DNA of 46,923 nt. It comes from Candidatus Zixiibacteriota bacterium (GTDB lineage Bacteria > Zixibacteria > MSB-5A5 > GN15 > FEB-12). The DNA is taken from assembly GCA_040752815.1 (NCBI GenBank), contig JBFMGC010000019.1, positions 1 through 46,923 of the forward strand. The letters are read 5' to 3'. The notes beneath the pieces were generated by a model. That model saw only the letters and a list, made by a program, of their open reading frames with translations, did not search any database and had not been told where the DNA came from. The position numbers were made by a program, and so were the translations under genes. Below are positions 23,178-44,996 of this stretch, in pieces; position 1 is the stretch's first letter; every line of letters begins with the position of its first letter.

Positions 23178-23843
23178 CTACCCTGTTTCGACCGGCATGC
23201 CGGCCTCTTCCCATTCAGCGACTCCATCCTTCAGTCGGGTGGCTTCCAGTCCTTTTGACCGAAGATACGAAACGGCCTCTTGAGCAAGTACGCAGTACGG
23301 CCCACGGCAGTACGCGACAAACTTTTTGTCGGGAGGGAACTCTTTCAGACGCTTTTTAAGCGCTGACAGGGGCACCGATACCGCGTGCGGCAAGTGACCG
23401 GCCGCAAATTCATCGACAGGCCGAACGTCAAGAATGACAACCTCACCGGCTTTCGCCTGCTTCAGCAGCCTCCTGCGCTCAACCGGCAGAAGGGTCGGCG
23501 AGTCGTCAAAGTAATCAGCTATGATGCGATCGATTTCGGCGAGCCGCCTCTGGGCGATCTCGCGCAGGGTGCGAAAGAATCGGCACACTTCGCGATCAGC
23601 CAGACGGTAGTAGACAAATACGCCATCTTTTCGGCCGTCGACCAATCGAGCCACTCGAAGGACATGCAGGTGCCGCGAGGTATTTGCTATTGACATCGAT
23701 GATTGCTGGGCCAGTACCTCGACGGTCTTTTCGGACTGACACAACAGGTCCAGAAGCTCAAGGCGCTTGGGGCTGGATAGGGCGCGGCCCAGGAGGGCGA
23801 ACTGGGCGTAAAGTCTGTCCTTAGTCTCTCGTGCAACGGACAC
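23178..23843 (-). CDS. ArsR-family regulator fused to a rhodanese domain
   Basis: A 221-residue two-domain protein. Residues ~10-85 are an ArsR winged helix (SSPKRLELLDLL, MSIANTSRHLHVLRVARLVDGRKDG). Residues ~130-221 are a rhodanese domain with the complete active loop CRGPYC (C179, C184). C35 and C87 in the DNA-binding part could form a persulfide sensor like that of SqrR/BigR, though their spacing differs. Likely job: repress the operon and respond to sulfide-derived sulfane sulfur. Start is GTG 23843 with GAGG 8 bp upstream. An operator palindrome lies 16-37 bp upstream, over the -10. Confidence 0.9.
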   Translation of the reverse strand: MSVARETKDRLYAQFALLGRALSSPKRLELLDLLCQSEKTVEVLAQQSSMSIANTSRHLHVLRVARLVDGRKDGVFVYYRLADREVCRFFRTLREIAQRRLAEIDRIIADYFDDSPTLLPVERRRLLKQAKAGEVVILDVRPVDEFAAGHLPHAVSVPLSALKKRLKEFPPDKKFVAYCRGPYCVLAQEAVSYLRSKGLEATRLKDGVAEWEEAGMPVETG

Positions 23844-31783: not shown

Positions 31784-34700
31784 TCACGCTATGTGACCCG
31801 TTTTCTTCTTCTCCTGCTTGATCTGCCAGAGGCGCCAGTAAGTATAAACAACCGGAATGATTTCGAGTGTCAGGAAGGTCGAGCTGATCAGTCCGCCGAC
31901 CATCGGTGCGGCGATTCGCTTCATGACATCGGCGCCCGTGCCGGTGGCCCAGAGCAGCGGTACCAGGCCGATCATGGTCGTGCTGACCGTCATCAGTTTG
32001 GGCCTCACCCGCATAACAGTCCCCTCCATGTGAGCCCAAATGATATCGTTGACGTCCCGAATTCTGCCGGCCTTTTTTCGTCGCTCGTATGCGTGGTCGA
32101 GATACAAGATCATTACGATACCCGTCTCCGTGGCCAAGCCCGCCAGCGCGATGATCCCGACCAGCGTCGCCGTCGAGTAGTTGTAGCCGAGGAAATACAT
32201 CAGCCAGATGCTCCCCACCAGCGCGAACGGCACCGAAGCCAGCACAATGAGAGTCTCGGTGAAGTTGCGGAAATTCAGATACAACATGATGATAATCAGA
32301 ATGAACGTGATCGGGATGACCACTTTCATCCGCTTGGCCATCAGTTCCAGTAGCTCGTACTGGCCGGTCCATTTCAGATAGTACCCGGGCGGAATCGGCA
32401 CCTGCTCGGCAACGACCTGCTTGGCTTCGTTAACGTAGCCGCCGATATCCCGTTTGTTTTGGTCCATGTCGACGTAGACATATCCGACGAGCATGCCGTC
32501 TTCGTCCCGAATCATCGGCGGGCCGGTGGCTATTCGAATGTCAGCGACCTCACCCAGTGGTATGCTGGCGCGCCCCTCCGGCAGGCGCGTGGGCTTTCTG
32601 GCTGCCGATCTGTTCATGCCGCTCGCTGCCGGCATGCTCTGCACATTCATGCCGCCGGCGCCCCCCGGGAAAGACGTGCCGGAAGAGCCGCCGCCCATCT
32701 TTTCGTTTTCCATCTGAGCTACAGTCATCACACTTCGCAGCGCCTGATAGTCCACCCAGGGGTCGGCACCGGCGAGCAGCGGCGATGCCACACTTTGGGC
32801 AGGACGGTACCAACCCATGGTCATGCCATCAGATTGAGAGTCGGATCCTCCGGACGGCAACGGCACCAGCACTTCCTTCAGGCGGTCCACGTTCTGACGG
32901 AGATCGCGGGGATAGCGCACGTTGATCGAAAAGCGGTTGCGTCCCTCGATGGTCACCTCAACCGGCAATCCACCGATGGCGGCCTCGATCACATCCTGAA
33001 CATCGCGCATGGTCAGCCCGTAACGAGCTATCTTGCCACGATCGGGGATTATGTCGATGAAGAACCCGCCGGTGTTACGATCTGAGTACACGGAGCGGGT
33101 GCCGGAAATCGATGATAGCGATTGCTCCAGTTCCATGCCGATGCGCTCGATTTCGGCCAAATCGTTCCCGAAAATCTTCACACCGATAGGCGTGCGAATG
33201 CCGGTGGAGAGCATGTCAATTCGGGTCTTGATCGGCATGGTCCAGGCGTTGGTCCAGCCGGGCATCTGCATCGCCTTGTCAAACTCGGCGATAAGTTCTT
33301 TCCAGGTGATAGTCCGCTCCTCCGGCCAGACGGGGCGAAGGACCTTCTTGAGAAAGTCCGGCGCCCAGCCCGAATACCAGCGCTTCTCGGGCACCTTGCG
33401 CCACTCGTCTGTCGGTCTCAACTGGACTGTCGTCTCGAGCATACTCAACGGGGCAGGATCAGTCGGGGTTTCCGCCCGACCAGCCTTCCCGTACACGGAA
33501 ATCACTTCGGGGAACGACCGTATGACTCGGTCCTGAAATTGCATGTACTGCTTGGCCGCCTCGACGGAGATGTTCGGCAAAGTAGTAGGCATGTAGAGAA
33601 TGTCACCCTCGTTCAGGGGCGGCATGAACTCCGAGCCGATTTTCGGGATCATCGGGATCGCCGAAACGATAGCCATGAGACCTATGAGAACGGTCGTCCT
33701 CGGATTGCGCAGAGCCACGAACACAAACGGCTTGTAAACTGAGATCAGGACGCGGGATACGGGATGCTTCGATTCTGGATGAATTTTCCCCCTTAGAAAA
33801 GTAACCATGAGCGCCGGCGCGAGTGTAACAGCGACAATCGCCGCGAAAAACATGGCGAAAGTCTTCGTATACGCCAATGGCGTAAACAGTCTTCCGCCCT
33901 GGCCGGTGAGGGCAAAAATCGGAAGGAAGCCGATCGTGATGATCAAAAGAGCATAGAAGATCGACGGGCCGACCTCCTTGGCCGCCGCGATAATGACCTC
34001 TATCCGCGGCACCGTGGCCGGGGCGTTCTCCATGCGCTTGTGGGCGTTCTCGACCAGCACGATACTGGCGTCAACCATCGCACCGATGGCGATGGCTATC
34101 CCACCGAGACTCATTATGTTCGAGTTGATCCCAAGAAAGTACATTGGAATAAACGCCAGTCCGACCGCGATCGGCAGCGCGATGATCGGCACGAGGGAAC
34201 TGCCAAAATGCAGCAGAAAGATGATGATGATGGCGGCGACGACGACGCCTTCTTCTATCAAAGTGTCCTTCAGCGTGTCGATGGCCCTCGTGATCAGGTT
34301 GCTTCTATCGTAGACCGTTCTGACCTCGATACCTTCCGGGAACGATGGTTCCAGTTCTTCAAGCTTAGCCTTGACCCGCTCGATAACCGCCAGCGCGTTC
34401 TCGCCGTAGCGCATCACGACAATACCGCCCACCGCTTCACCCTCGCCGTCGAGCTCGCCGACACCGCGACGGATATCGGGGCCCAGGCTTACCCGAGCGA
34501 CATTGCCGAGCAGAATCGGCGTACCGGTAGCGCTCTTACCCAGGCCGATCTGGCGTATCGCATCGAGACTCTGAATGTACCCTTTGCCACGAATGAAGTA
34601 CTCCCGCTCGGTAAGCTCGAGCACCCGGCCGCCGACATCATTGTTGCTTGCGCGAATCGCCCGGCTGACATCGCCGATACTGAGACCATAGGCACGGAGT

Positions 34701-35284
34701 TTCTCCGGATCGACTTCCACCTGGTACTGCTTTTGGTAACCGCCGATACTGGCGACCTCGGCCACTCCGGGCAGCGATGCCAGTGCGTATCTCAGGTTGA
34801 AGTCCTGAAATGTGCGCATCTCTGAGAGGTCATGTCTGCCGGTGGTGTCAACGAGTGCATACTGGAAGACCCAGCCTACCGACGAGGCATCGGGGCCTAT
34901 GATTGGCGTGACACCTTTAGGCAGTTTCCCTTCGAACTGCTTCATGTATTCGAGCACCCGGCTTCGCGCCCAGTAGATGTCAGTTCCCTCATCGAAAATC
35001 ACATAGACAAACGACATCCCGAACATCGAATACCCCCGCACTGCCGTCACATGTGGGGCCGACAAGAGAGCTGTGACTATCGGGTAGGTGACCTGGTCCT
35101 CGACAAGGTCAGGGCTGCGTCCCATCCATTCGGTCCACAGGATCACCTGAACGTCGGACAGGTCCGGGATGGCATCGAGCGGGATATTCTCAATCGAATA
35201 CCAGGCGCCGAGACAGGCGAAAAGCGTCCCGATGATCACAACCGACCGGTTGCGAGCGCAGAAATCTATGATGGCCTTTATCAT
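31784..35284 (-). CDS. cusA: Heavy-metal efflux RND transporter, CusA/CzcA type, with inserted Met-rich loop
   Basis: A 1166-residue inner-membrane HME-RND pump, about 120 residues longer than E. coli CusA. Visible: the N-terminal helix and NIPLDAIPDLSDVQVI, proton-relay AMVDASIVLVENAHKRME, and NAWTMPIKTRIDMLSTGIRTPIGVK with the Met of the CusA metal site. An insertion at about residues 810-898, rich in Gly, Ser and Met (MGGGSSG, MNVQSMPAASGMN), interrupts the periplasmic region just before PLGEVADIRIATGPPM. It exports a soft metal (Cu/Ag most likely by motif) with the CusB- and TolC-type partners. Last gene of the operon; 21 bp after the adaptor gene. Confidence 0.95.
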   Translation of the reverse strand: MIKAIIDFCARNRSVVIIGTLFACLGAWYSIENIPLDAIPDLSDVQVILWTEWMGRSPDLVEDQVTYPIVTALLSAPHVTAVRGYSMFGMSFVYVIFDEGTDIYWARSRVLEYMKQFEGKLPKGVTPIIGPDASSVGWVFQYALVDTTGRHDLSEMRTFQDFNLRYALASLPGVAEVASIGGYQKQYQVEVDPEKLRAYGLSIGDVSRAIRASNNDVGGRVLELTEREYFIRGKGYIQSLDAIRQIGLGKSATGTPILLGNVARVSLGPDIRRGVGELDGEGEAVGGIVVMRYGENALAVIERVKAKLEELEPSFPEGIEVRTVYDRSNLITRAIDTLKDTLIEEGVVVAAIIIIFLLHFGSSLVPIIALPIAVGLAFIPMYFLGINSNIMSLGGIAIAIGAMVDASIVLVENAHKRMENAPATVPRIEVIIAAAKEVGPSIFYALLIITIGFLPIFALTGQGGRLFTPLAYTKTFAMFFAAIVAVTLAPALMVTFLRGKIHPESKHPVSRVLISVYKPFVFVALRNPRTTVLIGLMAIVSAIPMIPKIGSEFMPPLNEGDILYMPTTLPNISVEAAKQYMQFQDRVIRSFPEVISVYGKAGRAETPTDPAPLSMLETTVQLRPTDEWRKVPEKRWYSGWAPDFLKKVLRPVWPEERTITWKELIAEFDKAMQMPGWTNAWTMPIKTRIDMLSTGIRTPIGVKIFGNDLAEIERIGMELEQSLSSISGTRSVYSDRNTGGFFIDIIPDRGKIARYGLTMRDVQDVIEAAIGGLPVEVTIEGRNRFSINVRYPRDLRQNVDRLKEVLVPLPSGGSDSQSDGMTMGWYRPAQSVASPLLAGADPWVDYQALRSVMTVAQMENEKMGGGSSGTSFPGGAGGMNVQSMPAASGMNRSAARKPTRLPEGRASIPLGEVADIRIATGPPMIRDEDGMLVGYVYVDMDQNKRDIGGYVNEAKQVVAEQVPIPPGYYLKWTGQYELLELMAKRMKVVIPITFILIIIMLYLNFRNFTETLIVLASVPFALVGSIWLMYFLGYNYSTATLVGIIALAGLATETGIVMILYLDHAYERRKKAGRIRDVNDIIWAHMEGTVMRVRPKLMTVSTTMIGLVPLLWATGTGADVMKRIAAPMVGGLISSTFLTLEIIPVVYTYWRLWQIKQEKKKTGHIA

Positions 35285-35305: not shown

Positions 35306-37075
35306 CTACTTGCCGTGTCCGGCGTGGGCATCGGTCTGCGTGGCGCCCATGCCGGCAATGGCCGCTTTGAGACGGCTTTCGGAGTCGATCAGGAAGTTGG
35401 CGCTGGTCACCACTTGTTCACCCTCAGACAGTCCCGCCAGCACTTCCATATAGTCATCCGACCTGCGGCCGGACTGGATCAGCCGGGGTTCGAAATGAGT
35501 GCCATTGTGAACGACGAAGGCGTACGTCTGGTCGCCGCCATCCATGACTGCGTCCGACGGCACCGCGAGAACGCGGTCACCCTTGCCTTCGAGCGCCACC
35601 TCGGCGTACATACCCGGCTTCAAGCGGAACGACTGATTAGAAAACTCCATTCGTATCTTGAGCGTTCTGGTTTCCTCCGAAACTGCCGGGTAGATGAAGC
35701 TGACAAGGCCCTCAAATTCCTCACCGGGATAGGCCGACGTGGTCATGCGAGCCTTTTGTCCGACTCTGATACTGGCCAGGTCGCGCTCGTATACGTCCAC
35801 AAGGACCCACACGCGGCTAAGGTCGGCCACCGCAAAGAGCTTTTGATCGGGGCCGATGAATTGTCCGGCGACTACGTTTTTCTCCAGCACGTATCCGGAA
35901 AACGGGCTTTTGACCCACAATTCCGCGCTGGGTGAGTTGGCCGTCTCAAGGCGCGCAAATTCCTCTGCGGGTATACCCAGCAATTGCAGACGCTGCCGCG
36001 CGACATCGAGCAGTTGTTTTCGCGTCTCTTTCAGCATTGGGTCTGCAACACGCGCCATCGCCTCGCGTGCGACGATATAATCTTGCTCGGCCTGATACAG
36101 ATCCTGGCTGTAAACCGACAGGAGCTTTTGATTCGCCGTCACCGGCTGGCCGGTCTGAGCCACCTCCAGCTCCTTTACCCAGCCGCTGAATCTGACATGA
36201 ATATCCGACAGGCGGGTTTCATCGGGTGTAACGAATCCGACGAGCCGAAGACTCCCATTCAGCGGACGACGCTCTACTCTGCCGGTACGAACGCCTATGA
36301 GCTGGAGCCGTTGCGGCTCGATTGTTACCGGCACAAGACCGGGGACAGGCGCCGAGCCGAGATTATCCGCCCCGCCCACTCCGTGGGCCGAGTGGTCCAC
36401 ACCCGTCTCCGCCTTAACCGACTCGAGCGGCATACCACACTTGGGGCAATCACCCGGCCTATCGGAGGTCACTTCGGGGTGCATGGGGCAGGCATACGTT
36501 GCTTTCGCCTCGGGCACCTGCTCCAGAAACATCCCACACTTGGGGCACCTGCCTAGCGTGTCTGAGATTACCTCGGGGTCCATAGGGCACGTGTACTGGC
36601 CGGGCTGGGCGGCCATAGGAACCTGTTCGAGAAACATCCCGCACTTGGGGCATCTGCCCGCGGTGTCGGAGACTACCTCCGGATCCATCGGGCAAGTGTA
36701 CTGGCCCGGCTTGGCCATGGAGGCTGATTGGGCTTCATGCCCGGACTCGCCCATGGTGTCACCTGATGCCGCAACCTCGTGTCCCTCACTATCTATAGCC
36801 ACCAGGCTCATACCGCAGATCGGGCAGTCGCCCGGCTGATTGCTGATATACGTGGGATGCATGGGGCAGTGGAACTGCTGCGCCCCTGCGGCATCGCCAC
36901 TCCAGGGGGTCAAACCGAAATAGCCGAGCACCATGATCAGCGCAAACAAGGTCATGGCTCCCAAGATAACCCACCGCACTATCGCCATCGTGTGCGTCAG
37001 CGGCGGCGCCGCCTCTTCTCCTTCGGGCAACGGCTCGTGTTCATGCGGATCGTATTTGCGAATGTCTTCAGCCAT
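35306..37075 (-). CDS. cusB: CusB-type efflux adaptor with four tandem heavy-metal-binding domains
   Basis: A 589-residue membrane-fusion protein. One helix at residues ~31-54 is followed by four HMBD zinc-ribbon-like units: 67-95 (CPMHPTYIS...CPICGM), 126-152 and 161-187 (CPMDPEV...CPKCGMFLE), and 193-220 (CPMHPEV...CPKCGM). From ~245 the CusB adaptor core begins, with LRLVGFVTPDETRLSDIHVRF and SPFSGYVLEKNVVAGQFI, ending in the His-rich AHAGHGK. It bridges the pump and the TolC-like channel and may hand metal over. Usual family members carry none or one HMBD. The two middle units contain Asp where His is normal. Confidence 0.94.
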   Translation of the reverse strand: MAEDIRKYDPHEHEPLPEGEEAAPPLTHTMAIVRWVILGAMTLFALIMVLGYFGLTPWSGDAAGAQQFHCPMHPTYISNQPGDCPICGMSLVAIDSEGHEVAASGDTMGESGHEAQSASMAKPGQYTCPMDPEVVSDTAGRCPKCGMFLEQVPMAAQPGQYTCPMDPEVISDTLGRCPKCGMFLEQVPEAKATYACPMHPEVTSDRPGDCPKCGMPLESVKAETGVDHSAHGVGGADNLGSAPVPGLVPVTIEPQRLQLIGVRTGRVERRPLNGSLRLVGFVTPDETRLSDIHVRFSGWVKELEVAQTGQPVTANQKLLSVYSQDLYQAEQDYIVAREAMARVADPMLKETRKQLLDVARQRLQLLGIPAEEFARLETANSPSAELWVKSPFSGYVLEKNVVAGQFIGPDQKLFAVADLSRVWVLVDVYERDLASIRVGQKARMTTSAYPGEEFEGLVSFIYPAVSEETRTLKIRMEFSNQSFRLKPGMYAEVALEGKGDRVLAVPSDAVMDGGDQTYAFVVHNGTHFEPRLIQSGRRSDDYMEVLAGLSEGEQVVTSANFLIDSESRLKAAIAGMGATQTDAHAGHGK

Positions 37076-37090
37076 TGTGATTTCCTCCGG

Positions 37091-38419
37091 TTATCTGCTT
37101 GCCCCGGCAGCACCCACCGAATAAGCGGCAGGGCCCACCGTGTAGCGGTCGATCTCGGCCATCGTCCGAGCGAGCTGGTTGTTCACCTCGTTTAACATCA
37201 GCCGATCCCGGTATACGTTGACAGCAAGCATCAACAGGTTTGTGTAGGGAACTCTATTCGACGCATAACCGGCAAGGGCGCTTTGAAAAGCATCCTGGGT
37301 GATCGGAATTATGCGATTGCCGTAGAGGTCCACGGTTTGGACTAAATGCACAGCGGTGGTATGGAGAAGCCTCAGACGGGACTCAATCTCCCTGCCCAAT
37401 TGGAGCGCTTCCTCATCGACACTTCGGCGCATCGCCTCCATCGATTCCGCCATTCGCCTCTGCTGGCGACCGGCGAATATTGGAAGCGTCAAGGTCGCCT
37501 GGAAACCAACCATGTTGTCGCGATCCTCCATCTCCGTGTCGGTGCGGAAGCCGTAATTCGCGGAGAGCCCCAGCATCGGCCAGCTCATCCGGCGCGCCGC
37601 TCTACTCGAGAAAGTGTATGCCTCGGCCTGGCGTGACAGTTTCCTCAGCGGCGGATAATTCTGCCGGGCCGCTGCCAACCAGTTATCGGGGCTCTGGGGG
37701 ACTTCGGGCTGGCTTGACACAGCGAGCGGCAGCGCATCTGAGACCGGATCGAGTCCCCTGAGAATGTTCAGGTTATAGCGGGACTCATCGACCATGTGCT
37801 CAGCTTCGAGCAGTTGCGCCTGGAGTCGCCACAACTCGGCCTGAGCGGCGAGAACTTCATCCTGGCTGGCCTGGTTTGTCGCGAGCTTGGACTTGGCCGA
37901 CGCCACCACCGCTTCGAGTAGATCGTGTTGTGCGGCCAAATCGCCCAGCGAGCGAGTACGATAATACAAGTCGGCAAATGCGTATCGCGCCGCCATCACC
38001 AGATCGACCTCCATGGCGCGACGGTCTTCAGATGCGGCGTCGGCCTCAGACTGTGCCGCCTTCGATTGAAGACCCTTCTGGCCGGCATACGGGATATTCT
38101 GGCTCAGGCCGACCATCTTCATGGTCATCGGGTCCATATCGAAGTCGAAAGACGTCGGCAGATTGGCGACACCAAGCATGAGCATCGGATCATCCCACGC
38201 TCCCGCCGGCCCCACTTTGGCCCGCGCTGCCTGCTCCATATAGCGGGCTGCAGCCGCTCTATTATTGTGCAGCACTACGTCTCTGATGACCTCGTCGATG
38301 TAAAGGCTGTCACCGGGTTGGCCAGCAACTTGCGATACCAGACAGAAAACGAGAACGAAGACTCCCGCCCGCCAGTGTGTGACTGGCGGCCTCAACTCGT
38401 CTTTTCTGCGATCCAGCAT
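37091..38419 (-). CDS. TolC/CusC-family outer membrane efflux protein
   Basis: A 442-residue protein with a signal peptide (VFVLVFCLVSQVAGQ) and two OEP-type repeats of long helices: GPAGAWDDPMLMLGVANLPTS, QEDLYYRTR-type helices (ARYAFADLYYRTRSLGDLAAQHDLL) and a second set ending LMLAVNVYRDRLMLNEVNNQLARTMAEIDRYTVG. This HME subgroup of TolC homologues pairs with CusBA. AGAGG precedes the ATG. It is the first gene of the operon, 15 bp before the adaptor gene. Sigma54-type promoter at 38448-38464. Confidence 0.93.
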   Translation of the reverse strand: MLDRRKDELRPPVTHWRAGVFVLVFCLVSQVAGQPGDSLYIDEVIRDVVLHNNRAAAARYMEQAARAKVGPAGAWDDPMLMLGVANLPTSFDFDMDPMTMKMVGLSQNIPYAGQKGLQSKAAQSEADAASEDRRAMEVDLVMAARYAFADLYYRTRSLGDLAAQHDLLEAVVASAKSKLATNQASQDEVLAAQAELWRLQAQLLEAEHMVDESRYNLNILRGLDPVSDALPLAVSSQPEVPQSPDNWLAAARQNYPPLRKLSRQAEAYTFSSRAARRMSWPMLGLSANYGFRTDTEMEDRDNMVGFQATLTLPIFAGRQQRRMAESMEAMRRSVDEEALQLGREIESRLRLLHTTAVHLVQTVDLYGNRIIPITQDAFQSALAGYASNRVPYTNLLMLAVNVYRDRLMLNEVNNQLARTMAEIDRYTVGPAAYSVGAAGASR

Positions 38420-38447: not shown

Positions 38448-38464
38448 TGGCAACGGCTGTGCCA
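38448..38464 (-). promoter_or_regulatory. Sigma54-type promoter of the tolC-cusB-cusA operon
   Basis: The minus strand reads TGGCACAGCCGTTGCCA: GG at 38463-38462, exactly 10 bp, then GC at 38451-38450, against the consensus TGGCAC-N5-TTGCW. The start is expected near 38438, about 19 bp before the ATG. The genome region also encodes an NtrC-type activator just upstream. Confidence 0.85.
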
Positions 38465-38538: not shown

Positions 38539-38574
38539 TGAATAATATTCTTCTGCGGTGGAGAATATTGTACA
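38539..38574 (-). promoter_or_regulatory. Two putative enhancer sites for the NtrC-type regulator
   Basis: TGAATAATATTCTTCT at 38539-38554 and TGGAGAATATTGTACA at 38559-38574, both partial palindromes around AATATT, centres 20 bp apart. They lie about 108 and 128 bp upstream of the predicted sigma54 start. Similar sites precede two other units. Confidence 0.7.
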
Positions 38575-38645
38575 AGGCGGACTAGCCCCGAATCGTATGC
38601 CGTTGTGCGACCCAGCCTGACGCGCCTCTCTTCCAGCGATCTCCC

Positions 38646-40007
38646 TCAGGCTTGCCTGTCAGGACGGATCTCGAATTTCTTCATGCGGTAGATAAGAATG
38701 TGCCGCGGGATCTTCAGATACGCCGCCGCCTTGGTCCGATTCCACCCGAACCTGTTGAGGGCATCGACAATCAGCCGCTTTTCGGCCTCGTAGAAAGTCA
38801 GGTGCGAACCAATGTCGGCACTAACAACCGATGCCTGCGCCGGCGAGCTCGCGGTCGCAAAGTCAGGCGGCAGGTCGTCGTGTGTCAGAATATCCGATGT
38901 CCGCAGTATGGCCATCCGCTCCATCAGGTTTTCGAGCTCCCGGATGTTTCCCGGCCAGGGGTGCTGACGAAGCTCGTTCATAAGATCTTCTGCGATGCTG
39001 ATCTTCTCTCCGGGGGCGAATTTGTCGAGAAAGGTTTTGGCCAATAGGGCGATGTCTTCGCGGCGCTCCCTCAAGGGCGGCACATGGACCGGGATGACAT
39101 TCAGCCGATAAAACAAATCCTCGCGGAAGCGGTTGTCGGCCACTCGTTCGCGCAGGTTGACATTGGTAGCGGCCAGCAGGCGCACGTCGATCTCCACCCG
39201 TTTCTCCGAACCGACCGGCTCGATTACCCGTTCCTGTATCGCCCGAAGCAACTTCGCCTGCAGCTCCATGCTGAGCTCGCTGATCTCGTCGAGTAGGAGC
39301 GTGCCACCATCGGCTTGTTCGAATTTCCCGACCTTATCTTTGACCGCACCGGTAAAAGCGCCCCGCACGTGGCCAAATAACTCGGACTCCAGCAACTCCC
39401 TGGGGATGGCCGCGCAGTTGACCGCCACAAACTCATTGCCGGCACGGTTGCTCTGGCGATGGATGTTCCGTGCGACCAGCTCCTTCCCGGTGCCGGACTC
39501 GCCGGTGATCAAAATTGTCGCGTCTGTCGGCGCTACCTTGTTGATCATCTCTACAAGGCGCTTGAAAGCCAGCGAAACTCCCACCATCGGACGCGGTCTA
39601 CCCGCGCCGGTCAACTGCTCTTTGAGCAGTTTGTTCTCCGCCTCCAGCTGGCGGTATTTGACCGCTTTTTCGATAGCCATGAAAAGCTGGTCATCATCGA
39701 ACGGCTTGGTCAGGTAATCGAATGCGCCCAGCTTTACCGCTTCCACCGCCTGAGAAACTGCTGCATAAGCAGTCATGAAGATGATTTCGAGATCGGGTTG
39801 GATCTTTCGGGCCTGCTTGAGCAGGTCCAGCCCGGTCAGCCGCGGCATTTTCATGTCGGAAAGCAGCAGATCGTAGCTGCTCTCTCTCAAAGCAATCAGC
39901 GCCTCTTCGCCGTCGGCGGCCGCCGTCACCTGGTACCCGCGCTGCTTGAGTTTGAACTGGATGACCTTCCGCAAGGCAGCGTCATCGTCGGCCAATAAAA
40001 CCTTCAC
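38646..40007 (-). CDS. NtrC-type sigma54-dependent response regulator
   Basis: A 453-residue three-domain regulator. Receiver domain residues 1-120 with the phospho-acceptor D51 (LLLSDMKMP). AAA+ domain about 145-375 with Walker A GESGTGKE, the sigma54-contacting GAFTGA, Walker B GGTLLLDEIS and the arginine finger region NRFREDLFYRLNV. Fis-type HTH at the C-terminus (WNRTKAAAYLKIPRHILIYRM). It is expected to activate the sigma54 promoters found here. Its start overlaps the sensor stop (ATGA). The nearest analogues by design are ZraR-like regulators of metal-stress genes. Confidence 0.95.
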   Translation of the reverse strand: MKVLLADDDAALRKVIQFKLKQRGYQVTAAADGEEALIALRESSYDLLLSDMKMPRLTGLDLLKQARKIQPDLEIIFMTAYAAVSQAVEAVKLGAFDYLTKPFDDDQLFMAIEKAVKYRQLEAENKLLKEQLTGAGRPRPMVGVSLAFKRLVEMINKVAPTDATILITGESGTGKELVARNIHRQSNRAGNEFVAVNCAAIPRELLESELFGHVRGAFTGAVKDKVGKFEQADGGTLLLDEISELSMELQAKLLRAIQERVIEPVGSEKRVEIDVRLLAATNVNLRERVADNRFREDLFYRLNVIPVHVPPLRERREDIALLAKTFLDKFAPGEKISIAEDLMNELRQHPWPGNIRELENLMERMAILRTSDILTHDDLPPDFATASSPAQASVVSADIGSHLTFYEAEKRLIVDALNRFGWNRTKAAAYLKIPRHILIYRMKKFEIRPDRQA

Positions 40008-41089
40008 CGCTGGGCTCCCCTTTCAATCGTTGGAAGTACGATATTCACCCTCGTGCCCTTACCCGGTTTGCTCACCAGTTTTATCTGACCGTCGTGACGG
40101 TCAACTATTGTCTTCACGATCGGCAAGCCCAAACCGGTTCCGGCCGCCTTAGTCGTATAGAACGGATCGAACGCCTGTGCGACCTCTTCCGGGCCCATGC
40201 CGGCGCCGGTATCTGAGATGGAAAGGACCGCCGCCCGGCGAGCATTGCGTCTGAGCTCGATTGTAATCGTATCGCCGGCCCGCGACGCCTCGATGGAATT
40301 CAACAGCAGATTGAGCAGTATTTGATGAACTTTTTCCGCGTCGCCCATTATCCAGATGCCCGGCTCAATATGGGAAACCATCGCCAGCGATGCCTTGCTC
40401 ACCTGGGGCAACAACTGCCTGACGCTCGATTCGACCGCGCCCGATAAATTGAGTCGCTCTTTTTGAGTCTCTTTCGGCCGGGCGAACTCAAGGAACTCGG
40501 TCACCGTCCCCTCGATGCGCTTGACTTCTTTGAACGCAATGTCACTGAACTCCTCGCGATCGGCACGAGGCACGCTCTGGTCGTGAATGATCTCCAGCGC
40601 CCCTTTTATCGACGCCAGCGGGTTCTTGATTTCATGCGCTACGCCGGCGGCCATTTGTCCAACCAAAGACAGATGATGGCTCCGCTCGAGTTGCAGCTTG
40701 GTTTCTTCGTGTTTCTTGCGAACGTTGATTTCACGATCGATTAATGCTCCGACCAGAATGCCAATCGCGAAATAGAAGAATATCTCCACCAGCTCCTGTG
40801 TGAGATCGAGCTCGGCCGGCATGGCGCCAAGAAGATACGGAACGATCAGGAGCGATATGACCAGAGCGCTGTAAATGCCGCCGCGGATGCCGAACCATGA
40901 CGCCGCGATGGCAATCGGTATGTAGCAAAAGCGACTGTGAAGCGCGTGAAGCCAATGCACGTGGCCGAACAGCCGCTCGGTCAACCAGCCGTAGTGAATC
41001 GCGATCGTCAGCGCCGTGATCGACGCTATTATCACCAGCTTCAAACGCCGATAGGTTACGGCATCGGAATGTCCCGGCAGCTCGGTCAT
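40004..41089 (-). CDS. Membrane sensor histidine kinase, partner of the NtrC-type regulator
   Basis: A 361-residue kinase. Residues ~15-130 hold four hydrophobic helices (LVIIASITALTIAIHYGW, FCYIPIAIAASWFGI, YSALVISLLIVPYLLGAM, IFFYFAIGILVGALI) with no large periplasmic domain. Dimerisation/phosphotransfer box VAHEIKNPLASIKGALEII follows, then N-box LLNLLLNSIEAS, G1 DTGAGM and G2 GTGLGL. Sensing probably occurs within or close to the membrane. Cotranscribed with the regulator. The ligand is not visible; the surrounding genes argue for a metal or its envelope damage. Confidence 0.94.
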   Translation of the reverse strand: MTELPGHSDAVTYRRLKLVIIASITALTIAIHYGWLTERLFGHVHWLHALHSRFCYIPIAIAASWFGIRGGIYSALVISLLIVPYLLGAMPAELDLTQELVEIFFYFAIGILVGALIDREINVRKKHEETKLQLERSHHLSLVGQMAAGVAHEIKNPLASIKGALEIIHDQSVPRADREEFSDIAFKEVKRIEGTVTEFLEFARPKETQKERLNLSGAVESSVRQLLPQVSKASLAMVSHIEPGIWIMGDAEKVHQILLNLLLNSIEASRAGDTITIELRRNARRAAVLSISDTGAGMGPEEVAQAFDPFYTTKAAGTGLGLPIVKTIVDRHDGQIKLVSKPGKGTRVNIVLPTIERGAQR

Positions 41090-41247
41090 ACATCAACCTA
41101 GAGAAAGATTCGTGCCAATTGCAATCGCTGCCACCTTTCAGTGACTCTTCACCAGGGTGGCCGATGTAGCGCAACTACTTAAGCGATGTTCCTGCGGCCA
41201 CACGGCACACACCAGTTGTCCACACGCTTAGCGTCGTTAACAAGTAT

Positions 41248-41263: not shown

Positions 41264-41357
41264 TAAAACAAACAACTTTATACGCGCCGGGTGCCGCTGA
41301 GTTTGGCGGCACTCCACAAGCCGCTGATACTCAACACCTTCCGGAAGTGCTACAGTG

Positions 41358-41372
41358 TGGCACGCCATTTGT
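41358..41372 (+). promoter_or_regulatory. Sigma54-type promoter of the Met-rich lipoprotein operon
   Basis: TGGCAC-GCCAT-TTGT: GG at 41359-41360, 10 bp, then GT at 41371-41372. The -24 is perfect and the -12 has T for C. Predicted start near 41384; ATG 41428 has GAGGAAAG upstream. Confidence 0.68.
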
Positions 41373-41427: not shown

Positions 41428-41970
41428 ATGACGAGCCTTAAGCCCCTCGCTTTACTCCCGATCATGGGTGCGGTCTGGCTCATTAGTGGCGGCTGCAACG
41501 ACTCGAACGACATGACTGGCAGCCGTGAGAGCACCGCACCCGCCATTTTACGTGTCCATCCTCCCGACGGTGCCGTTGACGTACCGAGCGACGCGAGCCT
41601 TGCTATCAGGTTTAATATGCCGATGGACACCGCATCAGTCCATGCAGGACTCCACTTCACAGGCGGAGCCGACATGCAGTCGTGGATGGACAGCCTCGAT
41701 CACATGGGCGGCATGAGACAAATCAGCCCGGGTCAGCAGGAGCAGATGATGCAGTGGCTGGACTCACTGCACATCGCCGGGCGTTTCTTGTGGAATGAGT
41801 CGTTCGACAGCTGCACCTATCGGCCCGACTCTGCCATGCCGGTCGGCACAGATCATATGATTTTCTTATTCGGGCCGATGAAGTCCCGCGAGGGTGTGAT
41901 GATGAACATGGGTGGCAGTATGATGATGTCGGACACCGGGTTCAGTTACCATTTCACAACAGCTCTATAG
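41428..41970 (+). CDS. Methionine-rich lipoprotein with Big_5/SbsA Ig-like domain
   Basis: A 180-residue exported lipoprotein: signal peptide, then the lipobox SGGC (Cys at residue 22). Residues ~38-75 match a bacterial Ig-like domain (ILRVHPPDGAVDVPSDASLAIRF then NMPMDTASV). The rest is remarkably rich in Met and His/Asp: WMDSLDHMGGMRQ, QQEQMMQWLDSLH, EGVMMNMGGSMMMSDTG. Met clusters of this sort bind Cu(I) or Ag(I) in the periplasm by precedent. GAGGAAAG lies upstream of the ATG at 41428. A frame open from 41347 overlaps the promoter and is not the start. It leads a short operon with the next gene. Confidence 0.85.
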   Translation: MTSLKPLALLPIMGAVWLISGGCNDSNDMTGSRESTAPAILRVHPPDGAVDVPSDASLAIRFNMPMDTASVHAGLHFTGGADMQSWMDSLDHMGGMRQISPGQQEQMMQWLDSLHIAGRFLWNESFDSCTYRPDSAMPVGTDHMIFLFGPMKSREGVMMNMGGSMMMSDTGFSYHFTTAL

Positions 41971-41986: not shown

Positions 41987-42559
41987 ATGACGCGAATCTT
42001 TACCACGGCACGCACGGGCATTGCCACTCTTGTCCTGACCTGTGTGTCGCTGTCAGTCCCGGCGTCCGCCGGGTGCGGAGGGTCGTCTGGCGGATGCGGC
42101 AGTTCGCACGATCATGCCAAAAGCTCAACCACGGCGAAGGCACAGGACAGCAGTCAGTATACCTGCCCGATGCATCCGGAGATCATTCGATCCAAACCGG
42201 GTGACTGTCCCAGGTGCGGGATGAAGCTGGTTCCAGCTGAGGAGACTGCTTCTACCGTAGCGGCGACCCCTGACCATGCTTTGCCGGAGCAATTCGGGCA
42301 GCTCCTGGAGGAATACGCTGCCCTGCGGGACCATTTCGAAACGATGATGTCCCTCACGGCCATAGAAAAGCTCGGCCCTGAGATGCGCATCCATCGCAAC
42401 CTTATGGTGCTGTTCGGCGAAAACCTGGCAAAATGTGAGGAAGCCTGTGGACGCCTGGCCGGTGCTGTTGACGACGAAAGCGGTACGACTGGAACCACCC
42501 CCACTCGGCCGGATCGCACGGACACTCCGGATCGAGCACAATCAGGACATCATCACTGA
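41987..42559 (+). CDS. Secreted heavy-metal-binding-domain (HMBD) protein
   Basis: A 190-residue exported protein: signal peptide to about residue 28 (LVLTCVSLSVPASAG), then a Cys/Gly-rich region (CGGSSGGCGSSHDHA) and one HMBD at ~58-82 (YTCPMHPEIIRSKPGDC, CPRCGMKLVP; C60, H63, C74, C77). A helical region follows (QLLEEYAALRDHFETMMSLT) and a His-rich tail SGHHH. AAGGAG precedes the ATG, 16 bp after the previous stop. It likely captures metal in the periplasm. SAGC is a weak lipobox, so it could be lipidated. Confidence 0.87.
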   Translation: MTRIFTTARTGIATLVLTCVSLSVPASAGCGGSSGGCGSSHDHAKSSTTAKAQDSSQYTCPMHPEIIRSKPGDCPRCGMKLVPAEETASTVAATPDHALPEQFGQLLEEYAALRDHFETMMSLTAIEKLGPEMRIHRNLMVLFGENLAKCEEACGRLAGAVDDESGTTGTTPTRPDRTDTPDRAQSGHHH

Positions 42560-42631: not shown

Positions 42632-43042
42632 ATGGAGATGATTCGGACTTTCCAGCTGTGTCTTCGACTCGACAGAGCGGCAAAACTGCTTCGCCTGGAA
42701 CTCGATCGGTTCGGCTTCGCCGTCTCAGAAACTCCTGACCCCGGCTGGGAGCTCCCACCGCTCGTGGAACGCAGGCACGACCGAGTAAGAAGATTGTATG
42801 TCCGTGACAAGAGGTCACTACCCTCGCCGGACGGCGTTCTGGCGCCGACCCGCCAAGTGGTTCTTTCTCAGGTGTACGGGGGATTGACAACAGTTACCGT
42901 GTTAGCCGCCGCTCACAACGGTTGCGACACAGATACCACACCACGAGCCCAGGACATGCGTATCCTCAAGGCGATCCTGGCGACCGGGATGTCGGCATTC
43001 GCCCGCGAAGACACAAGATCCCGACACGCGGCGATCCACTAA
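42632..43042 (+). CDS. Hypothetical protein (uncertain)
   Basis: A 136-residue frame I do not recognise. It starts with two close in-frame ATGs (42632, 42638); GGAAGG lies 10 bp upstream. The first ~35 residues look helical (FQLCLRLDRAAKLLRLELDRFG), the rest is mixed, with Cys at 10 and 98. It lies between the HMBD gene and the twin-YHS promoter and could be the third gene of the 41428 operon. A long alternative frame exists on the other strand; coding status is unsettled. Confidence 0.4.
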   Translation: MEMIRTFQLCLRLDRAAKLLRLELDRFGFAVSETPDPGWELPPLVERRHDRVRRLYVRDKRSLPSPDGVLAPTRQVVLSQVYGGLTTVTVLAAAHNGCDTDTTPRAQDMRILKAILATGMSAFAREDTRSRHAAIH

Positions 43043-43182: not shown

Positions 43183-43198
43183 TGGTACGATAATTGCT
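43183..43198 (+). promoter_or_regulatory. Sigma54-type promoter of the twin-YHS gene
   Basis: TGGTACGATAATTGCT: GG at 43184-43185, 10 bp, GC at 43196-43197, against TGGCACGNNNNTTGCW (one mismatch at the defined positions). Predicted start near 43209. Confidence 0.82.
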
Positions 43199-43254
43199 TT
43201 GAGCTGAGTATGTTTACAGAAAACCTTCAAAGCAAGGATTTAAGGAGACGACCT

Positions 43255-43755
43255 TTGATCTCAACTAGCACCTTGACAGGAGCGATTGTGGTTGCTGTTT
43301 CATTGATGAGTTCCGCTTTCCCCGAGCAATCGAAAACGCCATCCGCTTCAGCCGCGCCTAAAGAGCTTAAGCCCCAGACCGTCTGTCCAGTGATGGGGAA
43401 GCCGATCGATTCATCGGCCTACACCGATATTCAGGGCCAGCGTGTATACCACTGTTGCAAAGGGTGTACTGAGAAACTAACTGCTGACCCGGACAAGTTC
43501 TTCAAGAGAGCGGCTGCCGAGGGTGTATTGTTTCAAAACATACAGACCACCTGCCCCGTGTCAGGTGAAGCCCTTGAGGACAAAGATATCTATACGGACT
43601 ATGAGGGACGCCGCATCTATTTCTGCTGCAAGAAGTGCACCAGCATGTTTGCTGAGACCCCGCAGAAGTTTTTGAAGGCGATGGACGCGCCGGCCAATGT
43701 CGAACCGCCGGCGCACAAAGAAGATCACAGCGGTCATCATCATGGCGGCCACTGA
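43255..43755 (+). CDS. Secreted twin-YHS-domain metal-binding protein
   Basis: A 166-residue protein with a signal-like N-terminus and two YHS/TRASH-type domains: C44, C67, C68, C71 (VCPVMGKP...YHCCKGC) and C100, C124, C125, C128 (TCPVSGEA...YFCCKKC). The tail is His-rich (HKEDHSGHHHGGH). YHS domains bind Cu, Ag or similar ions. I take TTG 43255 as start: AAGGAG lies 7 bp upstream and the sigma54 start is predicted at ~43209, which leaves the ATG at 43210 leaderless. The next gene begins 17 bp later. Confidence 0.82.
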   Translation: MISTSTLTGAIVVAVSLMSSAFPEQSKTPSASAAPKELKPQTVCPVMGKPIDSSAYTDIQGQRVYHCCKGCTEKLTADPDKFFKRAAAEGVLFQNIQTTCPVSGEALEDKDIYTDYEGRRIYFCCKKCTSMFAETPQKFLKAMDAPANVEPPAHKEDHSGHHHGGH

Positions 43756-43772
43756 GCAGGATCATAAAAAGC

Positions 43773-44759
43773 GTGTATCCCTCGACACGGCGCTGGCACC
43801 GCCACATTGTCGCCACTATCGCTAGTTTCGGCAACCTTTCTACCCCCGTCTTCCGGTGCTTACGCCGCATGGCCGGAGCCCTGCTAATAACAGGCGCTCC
43901 GGCCCTTCTTTTGGCCATGCCGTCACTGGCCACCCCGATCAACCGCTACTGCCCGGTACTCACTGACGAACCCGTGGATTTGTCGGTCACAACGACCTAC
44001 GAGGGCCGTGAGATAGCTTTCTGCTGCAAGAAATGTCGACGCCAGTTTCTCGAGAATCCGGAGCGGTATCTGGAAGCTCTGACGGCAACCGCACAGGCAG
44101 AGTTTGAGAAAATTGCCAGCGAAAAACCAGTGCAAGATCCCGGCCAACATGATCACACACATCACGATCATGACGACACGGCGACAGCATCTGACACTGT
44201 CGACAGCATTGTCGCAAACTCTCATGCGCATTCGGACGATACAGCCACAACTGAAAGTTCTGGCGCAACCGCCGAACACGATCATGCCACTGATCACGGA
44301 GCTTCTGGAGGCAACGCCTCAGGCCGATTCATCACATTCATGGGGAAGTTCCACCCGGTGATCGTGCACTTCCCGATCGCTCTGATAATCGTGGCGCTCG
44401 CATTTTCGGTGCTGGCGATGTTAGCCCGAGCGAATCTCTATGATCTGATCGCTGTCAAAACAACCTATCTCGGCGGCTTATCCGCGGTGGTATCGGCGCT
44501 GCTGGGGCTGGCGGCCGCCTCGGGCGCACATTATCCCGACATGCTGGTCGGCTACTTCACGTGGCATCGCTTGCTGGGGATCACGTCGGCAGCGCTTACC
44601 TTGCTTTCCTGCTTCCTGGCGTATCGGTATGAGAAGACTCCATCACCGAGCCGGCAATGGCTGTTTCGCGGCACCCTGGCGCTGAACGCAGTACTGGTAG
44701 GTGTCACGGGTCACTTCGGCGCGACCTTGATCTACGGCCCCGATCACTTTGCGTTTTGA
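43773..44759 (+). CDS. YHS-domain membrane protein with DUF2231 (four-helix) domain
   Basis: A 328-residue protein if the GTG at 43773 is used; ATG 43869 is an alternative that leaves an ordinary signal peptide (MAGALLITGAPALLLAMPSLA). A YHS-like motif follows (CPVLTDEPVDL...FCCKKCRRQF), then a long His/Asp-rich linker (HDHTHHDHDD, HAHSDD, HDHATDHG) and a C-terminal membrane domain with GKFHPVIVHFPIALIIVALA, the DUF2231 signature, and four helices. HPVIVHFPIAL may bind haem or metal; DUF2231 function is not settled. It follows the twin-YHS gene by 17 bp. The linker is a likely metal-binding region. Confidence 0.82.
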   Translation: MYPSTRRWHRHIVATIASFGNLSTPVFRCLRRMAGALLITGAPALLLAMPSLATPINRYCPVLTDEPVDLSVTTTYEGREIAFCCKKCRRQFLENPERYLEALTATAQAEFEKIASEKPVQDPGQHDHTHHDHDDTATASDTVDSIVANSHAHSDDTATTESSGATAEHDHATDHGASGGNASGRFITFMGKFHPVIVHFPIALIIVALAFSVLAMLARANLYDLIAVKTTYLGGLSAVVSALLGLAAASGAHYPDMLVGYFTWHRLLGITSAALTLLSCFLAYRYEKTPSPSRQWLFRGTLALNAVLVGVTGHFGATLIYGPDHFAF

Positions 44760-44898: not shown

Positions 44899-44996
44899 TA
44901 CCCGGTAGCCCACAGCTCTGCTGTGGGTCCTCAAAATCTCCGAAACGCCCGTCATACCCGGTACCCCACAGCTCTGCTGTGGGTCGTTCGAAGTCT
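44899..44996. repeat. Pair of direct repeats with perfect hairpins
   Basis: ACCCGGTAGCCCACAGCTCT and ACCCGGTACCCCACAGCTCT each run on into GCTGTGGGTC. Each contains the 8-bp stem CCCACAGC/GCTGTGGG with a TCT loop. They are 57 bp apart. Confidence 0.75.

Follow-up and report, generated by a model that had tools for sequence, protein, structure and literature searches.

Two adjacent genes in a Candidatus Zixiibacteriota genome encode three YHS domains, two in one product and the third fused to a DUF2231 membrane domain in the other, and the locus raises the question of what such a pair does and with which partners. The initial annotation of the window (the whole stretch of DNA that was analyzed, 46,923 nucleotides) proposed a soluble carrier with a membrane receiver. 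The answer considered probable here, with some reserve, is that the twin-YHS protein is a carrier replacing CusF in a sigma54-controlled, Cus-type Cu(I)/Ag(I) regulon, to which the YHS-DUF2231 protein is an optional partner.

Gene Organization and Domain Content

The pair and the cluster genes that surround it are as follows:

43255..43755, plus strand: gene A, twin-YHS protein, predicted exported, 166 aa (Pfam YHS, AF2 folds, SD and sigma54 transcription start)
43773..44759, plus strand: gene B, fusion of YHS, His/Asp-rich linker and DUF2231, four transmembrane (TM) helices, 328 aa (Pfam, AF2, hydropathy)
41987..42559, plus strand: HMBD (CPMHP) protein, predicted exported (Pfam HMBD, 51.3 bits)
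41428..41970, plus strand: Big_5 Ig-like protein, Met-rich (20 Met of 180), predicted exported (Pfam Big_5)
40004..41089, minus strand: sensor histidine kinase with a membrane-loop motif of the HYG...W.HA.H.R.CYIPI type (Pfam HisKA, HATPase_c, weak DUF4118)
38646..40007, minus strand: sigma54-dependent response regulator with receiver, AAA+ and Fis HTH domains (profile matches)
37091..38419, minus strand: TolC-type outer-membrane channel (profile matches)
35306..37075, minus strand: CusB-type adaptor with four heavy-metal-binding (HMBD) repeats (profile matches)
31784..35284, minus strand: CusA-type RND pump with a complete CusA Met triad (TIGR00914, CusA alignment)

Between the HMBD and twin-YHS genes lies an ORF of 136 aa (42632-43042) that has no convincing family match and may be non-coding or a decayed gene. 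Far upstream, at 23178-23843, a 221-aa product resembles, by sequence only, a fusion of an ArsR-type regulator with a rhodanese.

The longest ORF of gene A spans 43210-43755 (+) and offers two alternative starts, ATG 43210 and TTG 43255. The sigma54 site at 43183-43197 places the expected transcription start at about 43209, and AAGGAG at 43242-43247 ends seven bases 5′ of the TTG; TTG 43255 is preferred because of this spacing and because ATG 43210 would be leaderless. Pfam recognizes YHS in two stretches of the product (45.7 bits, cut-off 30.3), with the Cys sets C59-C82/C83/C86 and C115-C139/C140/C143 (numbered from 43210), and the AF2 model contains two YHS folds, both confident. The third YHS belongs to gene B, where it scores 30.2 bits in the whole protein, just under the cut-off of 30.3, and 33.4 bits, over it, in the genome search; three Cys clusters over two genes separated by a 17-base gap, as first described, are thus borne out. 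Likewise present are the reported His-rich stretches, a C-terminal tail HSGHHHGGH in A and a His/Asp-rich linker with 10 His in 80 residues in B. The two genes are the sole matches to the YHS and DUF2231 profiles in the 3.19-Mb genome. Two copies of a hairpin-forming word, CCCACAGCTCTGCTGTGGGTC, lie about 55 bp apart just 3′ of gene B (44900-44985).

A PDB sequence search with the twin-YHS protein returned no significant match, and a fold search with its model gave weak matches to the YHS of toluene/phenol hydroxylase, ribosomal L24e and the TRASH of ZMYM5. The YHS domain is a copper-responsive module in the adenylyl cyclase of M. phlei (PMC4626032). With the YHS/TRASH domains of this cyclase, of P1B-ATPases and of L24e the present domains share a C...CCxxC-type module, a proposed copper binder; in contrast to those, they are tandem, predicted to be exported, and lie within an RND operon. 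Nearly all homologues of A carry a hydrophobic, signal-like N-terminus, and B begins with a hydrophobic stretch followed by YHS, so that the YHS parts of both proteins are predicted to be periplasmic. The description of A as soluble therefore stands, whereas a cytosolic location does not.

The DUF2231 Domain

Anchoring of B through DUF2231 is confirmed by a Pfam score of 43.2 bits (cut-off 26.4) and by four predicted membrane helices (194-218, 221-249, 256-288 and 292-321), all confident in the AF2 model; the same profile is matched by 19/19 relatives. H194 and H265 occur in each of 83 DUF2231 domains and H314 in most, while the conservation of H199 is partly built in, as this residue belongs to the search pattern. 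By predicted topology, the conserved His residues lie near the periplasmic side. Other DUF2231 (PF09990) proteins, including PSCyt1-DUF2231 forms, are likewise four-TM proteins with HPxxxHFPIAL, HR..G and GH.G motifs; there DUF2231 is joined to c-type cytochrome domains (PSCyt1), here to YHS. The open literature on DUF2231 describes no function for the family, and none was found on YHS together with DUF2231. Algoriphagus loci (L083, L090, L092, L093, L101, L115) encode DUF2231 proteins of about 820 aa, and the one that was scanned, from L083, reads DUF2231-PSCyt1-PSCyt2-PSD1.

This family context makes a redox role a serious rival, given the PSCyt1 fusions and the weak hits to b561. YHS-DUF2231 would then be a membrane protein with b-type heme, or with another redox function, in which the DUF2231 His residues, invariant H194 and H265 among them, coordinate heme at the periplasmic face and exchange electrons with YHS-held copper, either reducing Cu(II) to Cu(I) for Cus export or repairing the carrier cysteines. 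Matches to a prokaryotic cytochrome b561 profile (Ni_hydr_CYTB) occur in 7 of the 19 members (best E 0.0029), and the folds of cytochrome oxidase III, cytochrome bd and b561 are weakly matched. However, the profile hits are sub-threshold and the fold E is about 1, all supporting matches thus lying below significance; four-helix bundles are unspecific fold matches, and a fold search with the gene B model found no significant solved structure for DUF2231, only such bundles, weakly. Moreover, His residues on one side of the membrane, as the predicted topology has it, suit a copper site equally. This rival reading is considered less likely than not.

Conservation of the Pair

The survey comprised 132 Candidatus Zixiibacteriota genomes and, outside the phylum, ten non-Zixibacteria genomes. 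The full twin-YHS protein is found in 46 of the 132 and the YHS-DUF2231 fusion in 19, all of which also have twin-YHS; the chance of this overlap is 1e-10 if genomes are assumed independent, which they are not. On uncut contigs both genes share one locus in 15 of 15 cases, and the reading as chance neighbors was dropped on account of this co-location. They are direct neighbors in nine of these loci (the window, L034, L044-L047, L049-L051), and in the other six the fusion lies 3′ of CusA, within its operon. Outside the phylum, multi- or single-YHS genes lie beside YHS-DUF2231 or within a few kb of it in Planctomycetota (L072, L077, L084, L086), Uabimicrobium (L074), Phycisphaera (L069), Hydrogenedentota (L067) and Verrucomicrobia (L068). 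The neighborhood survey that the initial annotation called for thus finds the two together well beyond this strain. Triple-YHS proteins occur near YHS-DUF2231 in L067, L072 and L077 (Hydrogenedentota and Planctomycetota).

The pairing of a carrier with a membrane receiver is therefore real and conserved as a pair, but not as a dependence: the fusion is absent from 27 of the 46 twin-YHS genomes, which rules out a carrier that depends on its membrane partner. On a tree of the twin-YHS proteins, weakly resolved at its deep forks, fusion presence and absence require at least seven changes, so repeated gain or loss is probable. In 18/18 loci with an intact fusion YHS, the CCxxC of the second YHS domain of A is preserved; in 7 of 23 fusion-less loci this domain is degenerate, and the fusion-less L174 and L176-L179 have CSxxC or CNxxC in place of CCxxC. 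In L051 this domain is degenerate and the YHS of the fusion also lacks its Cys. Such co-retention (Fisher p = 0.007, with relatedness ignored and few independent events) hints that domain 2 of the twin-YHS protein may make contact with the YHS of the fusion.

Position of Twin-YHS in Cus-Type Operons

Cus-type pumps expel copper and silver from the periplasm, with CusF as their known carrier, and in E. coli the gene order is cusC-cusF-cusB-cusA, with cusF between cusC and cusB. CusF passes Cu(I) to CusB (PMC6235853). The Zixibacteria loci have twin-YHS in exactly this slot: the order TolC - twin-YHS - CusB is found in 22 loci (20 genomes), with CusA next where the contig continues, and most of these loci are divergent from the histidine kinase and sigma54-dependent regulator genes (HK-RR54). 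One Verrucomicrobia locus also has twin-YHS between TolC and CusB, and Uabimicrobium has YHS-CusB-CusA. CusF itself (PF11604) was detected in 0 of the 132 phylum genomes, the E. coli control being positive in the same profile search. The accessible part of the literature on YHS together with CusF holds nothing evidently about such an arrangement.

The likeness to E. coli CusCFBA/CusRS extends to the order TolC, carrier, CusB, CusA, the Met triad of CusA, a small periplasmic metal protein and a two-component regulator divergent from the pump operon. The differences are a twin-YHS protein in place of the OB-fold CusF, a sigma54-dependent regulator (sigma54-interaction and Fis domains) in place of the OmpR-type CusR, and the addition of optional YHS-DUF2231 and Big_5 genes. 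The CusF slot, the absence of PF11604 and the Met triad of the pumps together make it most likely that twin-YHS does the job of CusF, an analogy of place and partners and not homology. As the fusion is missing from 27/46 genomes, in which twin-YHS mostly holds the CusF position where this was examined, the RND pump is most likely its primary partner and the fusion an accessory.

The E. coli-like CusA of the window and every long CusA2 pump of these operons retain equivalents of M573, M623 and M672, which makes Cu(I)/Ag(I) the most likely cargo. YHS/TRASH domains do bind further metals, such as Cd in L24e (as cited in PMC4626032), and another thiophilic or divalent metal might be the target; the Met triad in both pump lineages and the HMBD and Met-rich partner proteins make this improbable. 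CusA2 is a divergent lineage of 1,260 aa in which the Met triad is accompanied by the TM4 motif GTIVDMG (L035-L043, L164-L179); with long CusB proteins it dominates the operons of these loci, and both also occur in the Planctomycetota and Uabimicrobium loci. The Met-rich Big_5 protein is present in most fusion loci and adjoins the fusion gene in most relatives.

Some observations weigh against the CusF-like reading. In the window the pump is of a different CusA/CusB lineage and forms its own transcription unit, and the four HMBD repeats of its CusB could substitute for a carrier. In addition, the YHS pair has no pump gene in reach at seven loci, where it may act independently of efflux. The pair might then be a copper store or sponge, in which exported and membrane-held Cys and His residues buffer periplasmic copper without a pump. 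The His-rich tail of A and linker of B would suit such a sink. The CusF position and the linked pump genes of most genomes, as well as the single YHS site of the membrane protein, speak against it, and we regard it as a minor possibility. CydA/CydB-like cytochrome bd genes, as read from the sequence, lie a few kb from pump-less YHS loci L044-L047, L049 and L173 (genomes G077, G088, G084, G076, G089 and G083), which would suit the redox role discussed above.

At the pump-less L044-L047 and L049 the pair stays beside HK-RR54. Since YHS is a copper sensor module in the M. phlei cyclase (PMC4626032), the YHS proteins may instead take part in sensing, as a periplasmic accessory that loads or shields the His/Cys loop of the kinase. 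However, the commonest layout places twin-YHS between TolC and CusB, away from the kinase, which bears conserved candidate ligands of its own; such a role is thus quite unlikely. A carrier for the Cus-type pump remains the preferred reading of twin-YHS.

Transcriptional Regulation

The regulatory sites of the cluster are as follows:

38450..38464, minus strand: sigma54 site of the TolC-CusB-CusA unit (consensus scan)
41103..41117, minus strand: sigma54 site of the HK-RR unit (consensus scan)
41358..41372, plus strand: sigma54 site of the Big_5/HMBD unit (consensus scan)
43183..43197, plus strand: sigma54-type promoter of the YHS pair, TGGTACGATAATTGC, 1 mismatch, with counterparts upstream of orthologues
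38558..38575, no strand: putative enhancer palindrome GTGGAGAATATTGTACAA, 2 mismatches, upstream of TolC, among the next best in the genome
41247..41264, no strand: putative enhancer palindrome TTGGTGAATATTCTCCAT, 1 mismatch, between the HK and Big_5 units, best in the 3.19-Mb genome
43099..43107, plus strand: half-site TATTCTCCA of the palindrome, some 75 bp 5′ of the sigma54 site

At up to one mismatch the window contains exactly four sigma54 sites, all at 38.4-43.2 kb and heading the TolC, kinase, Big_5 and twin-YHS units, where 0.23 would be expected by chance (shuffles of the last 10 kb). The genome has rpoN (sigma54), and a scan for sigma70-type promoters and terminators stays close to the shuffled expectation, for which reason the sigma54 reading is preferred. 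The sigma54 promoter first proposed for the pair is supported by comparative promoter and enhancer evidence.

Comparison of the four upstream regions reveals a common word, ATTCTCCA, which in related loci resolves to the palindrome TTGTAGAATATTCTACAA, located 5′ of the kinase gene and also of TolC or twin-YHS. Its consensus was built from 24 orthologous sites, and of the 34 sites that a search of 656 kb finds with two mismatches or fewer, 24 precede these operon heads. The YHS promoter bears only half of the palindrome; the window has just three exact copies of TATTCTCCA, and each precedes a promoter of this set. The palindrome is read as the probable enhancer to which the sigma54 regulator would bind. 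An inverted repeat, GTGCCGCTGAGTTTGGCGGCAC, lies at 41291-41312, between the enhancer palindrome and the Big_5 sigma54 site. With three mismatches allowed, a genome-wide search yields 76 hits, as against 48 for the reversed control, and is thus mostly noise; no further regulon member is therefore claimed. The divergent HK-RR54 pair, together with the sigma54 sites and TTGTAGAATATTCTACAA in front of the operons, apparently joins these genes in a single regulon.

The kinase motif, HYG ... H/D..W.HA.H.R.CYIPI-type, is strongly conserved in the membrane loops (39 rows, some duplicates) and is a plausible copper site. No HAMP hit is obtained for the kinase, whose N-terminus is multi-TM and DUF4118-like. 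Copper regulation of this style has a precedent in CorSR/curA of Myxococcus xanthus, a two-component system for copper whose regulator depends on sigma54 and whose cluster has four putative sigma54 promoters (PMC3707914). Both systems have a sigma54-dependent response regulator and sigma54 promoters at the target genes; the CorSR kinase differs in having one TM, a HAMP and a periplasmic sensor domain, in contrast to the multi-TM DUF4118-like sensor here, and the CorSR targets are a multicopper oxidase, CopA and others, among which the accessible part of that source names no YHS pair. Thus the regulatory style is already known, and it is the kinase type and the targets that differ.

Proposed Mechanism and Implications

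In the mechanism that we infer, the membrane kinase would sense copper by its conserved His/Cys loop and activate the sigma54 regulator, which would bind TTGTAGAATATTCTACAA and induce the genes of the Cus-type tripartite pump, of the Met-rich Big_5 protein and of the YHS pair. The exported twin-YHS protein would be the periplasmic copper carrier of the pump, with a fold unrelated to that of CusF; its two C...CCxxC sites would bind the metal, which would then pass to CusB/CusA. In YHS-DUF2231, the four-helix membrane domain would carry the third YHS site and the His-rich linker on its periplasmic side. The most likely role of this protein would be to exchange copper with domain 2 of the carrier, either as a membrane-bound store or through a redox or transfer site formed by H194, H199, H265 and usually H314. 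In a bolder version, tandem YHS would have replaced CusF throughout the phylum, and YHS-DUF2231 would be a membrane enzyme of a new kind that works with it in metal handling or redox chemistry, which would give DUF2231 its first functional setting; this is put forward tentatively, with the balance somewhat against it.

A phylum in which CusF seems to be missing, and which has a small exported metal-type protein of another fold in the same slot, would offer a second, independent solution to the carrier requirement, which poses the question of whether the pump needs a carrier, and of what form. The fusion places DUF2231, a widespread domain without an assigned function, in a concrete copper setting with named residues, and the palindrome TTGTAGAATATTCTACAA defines a regulon that can be searched for.
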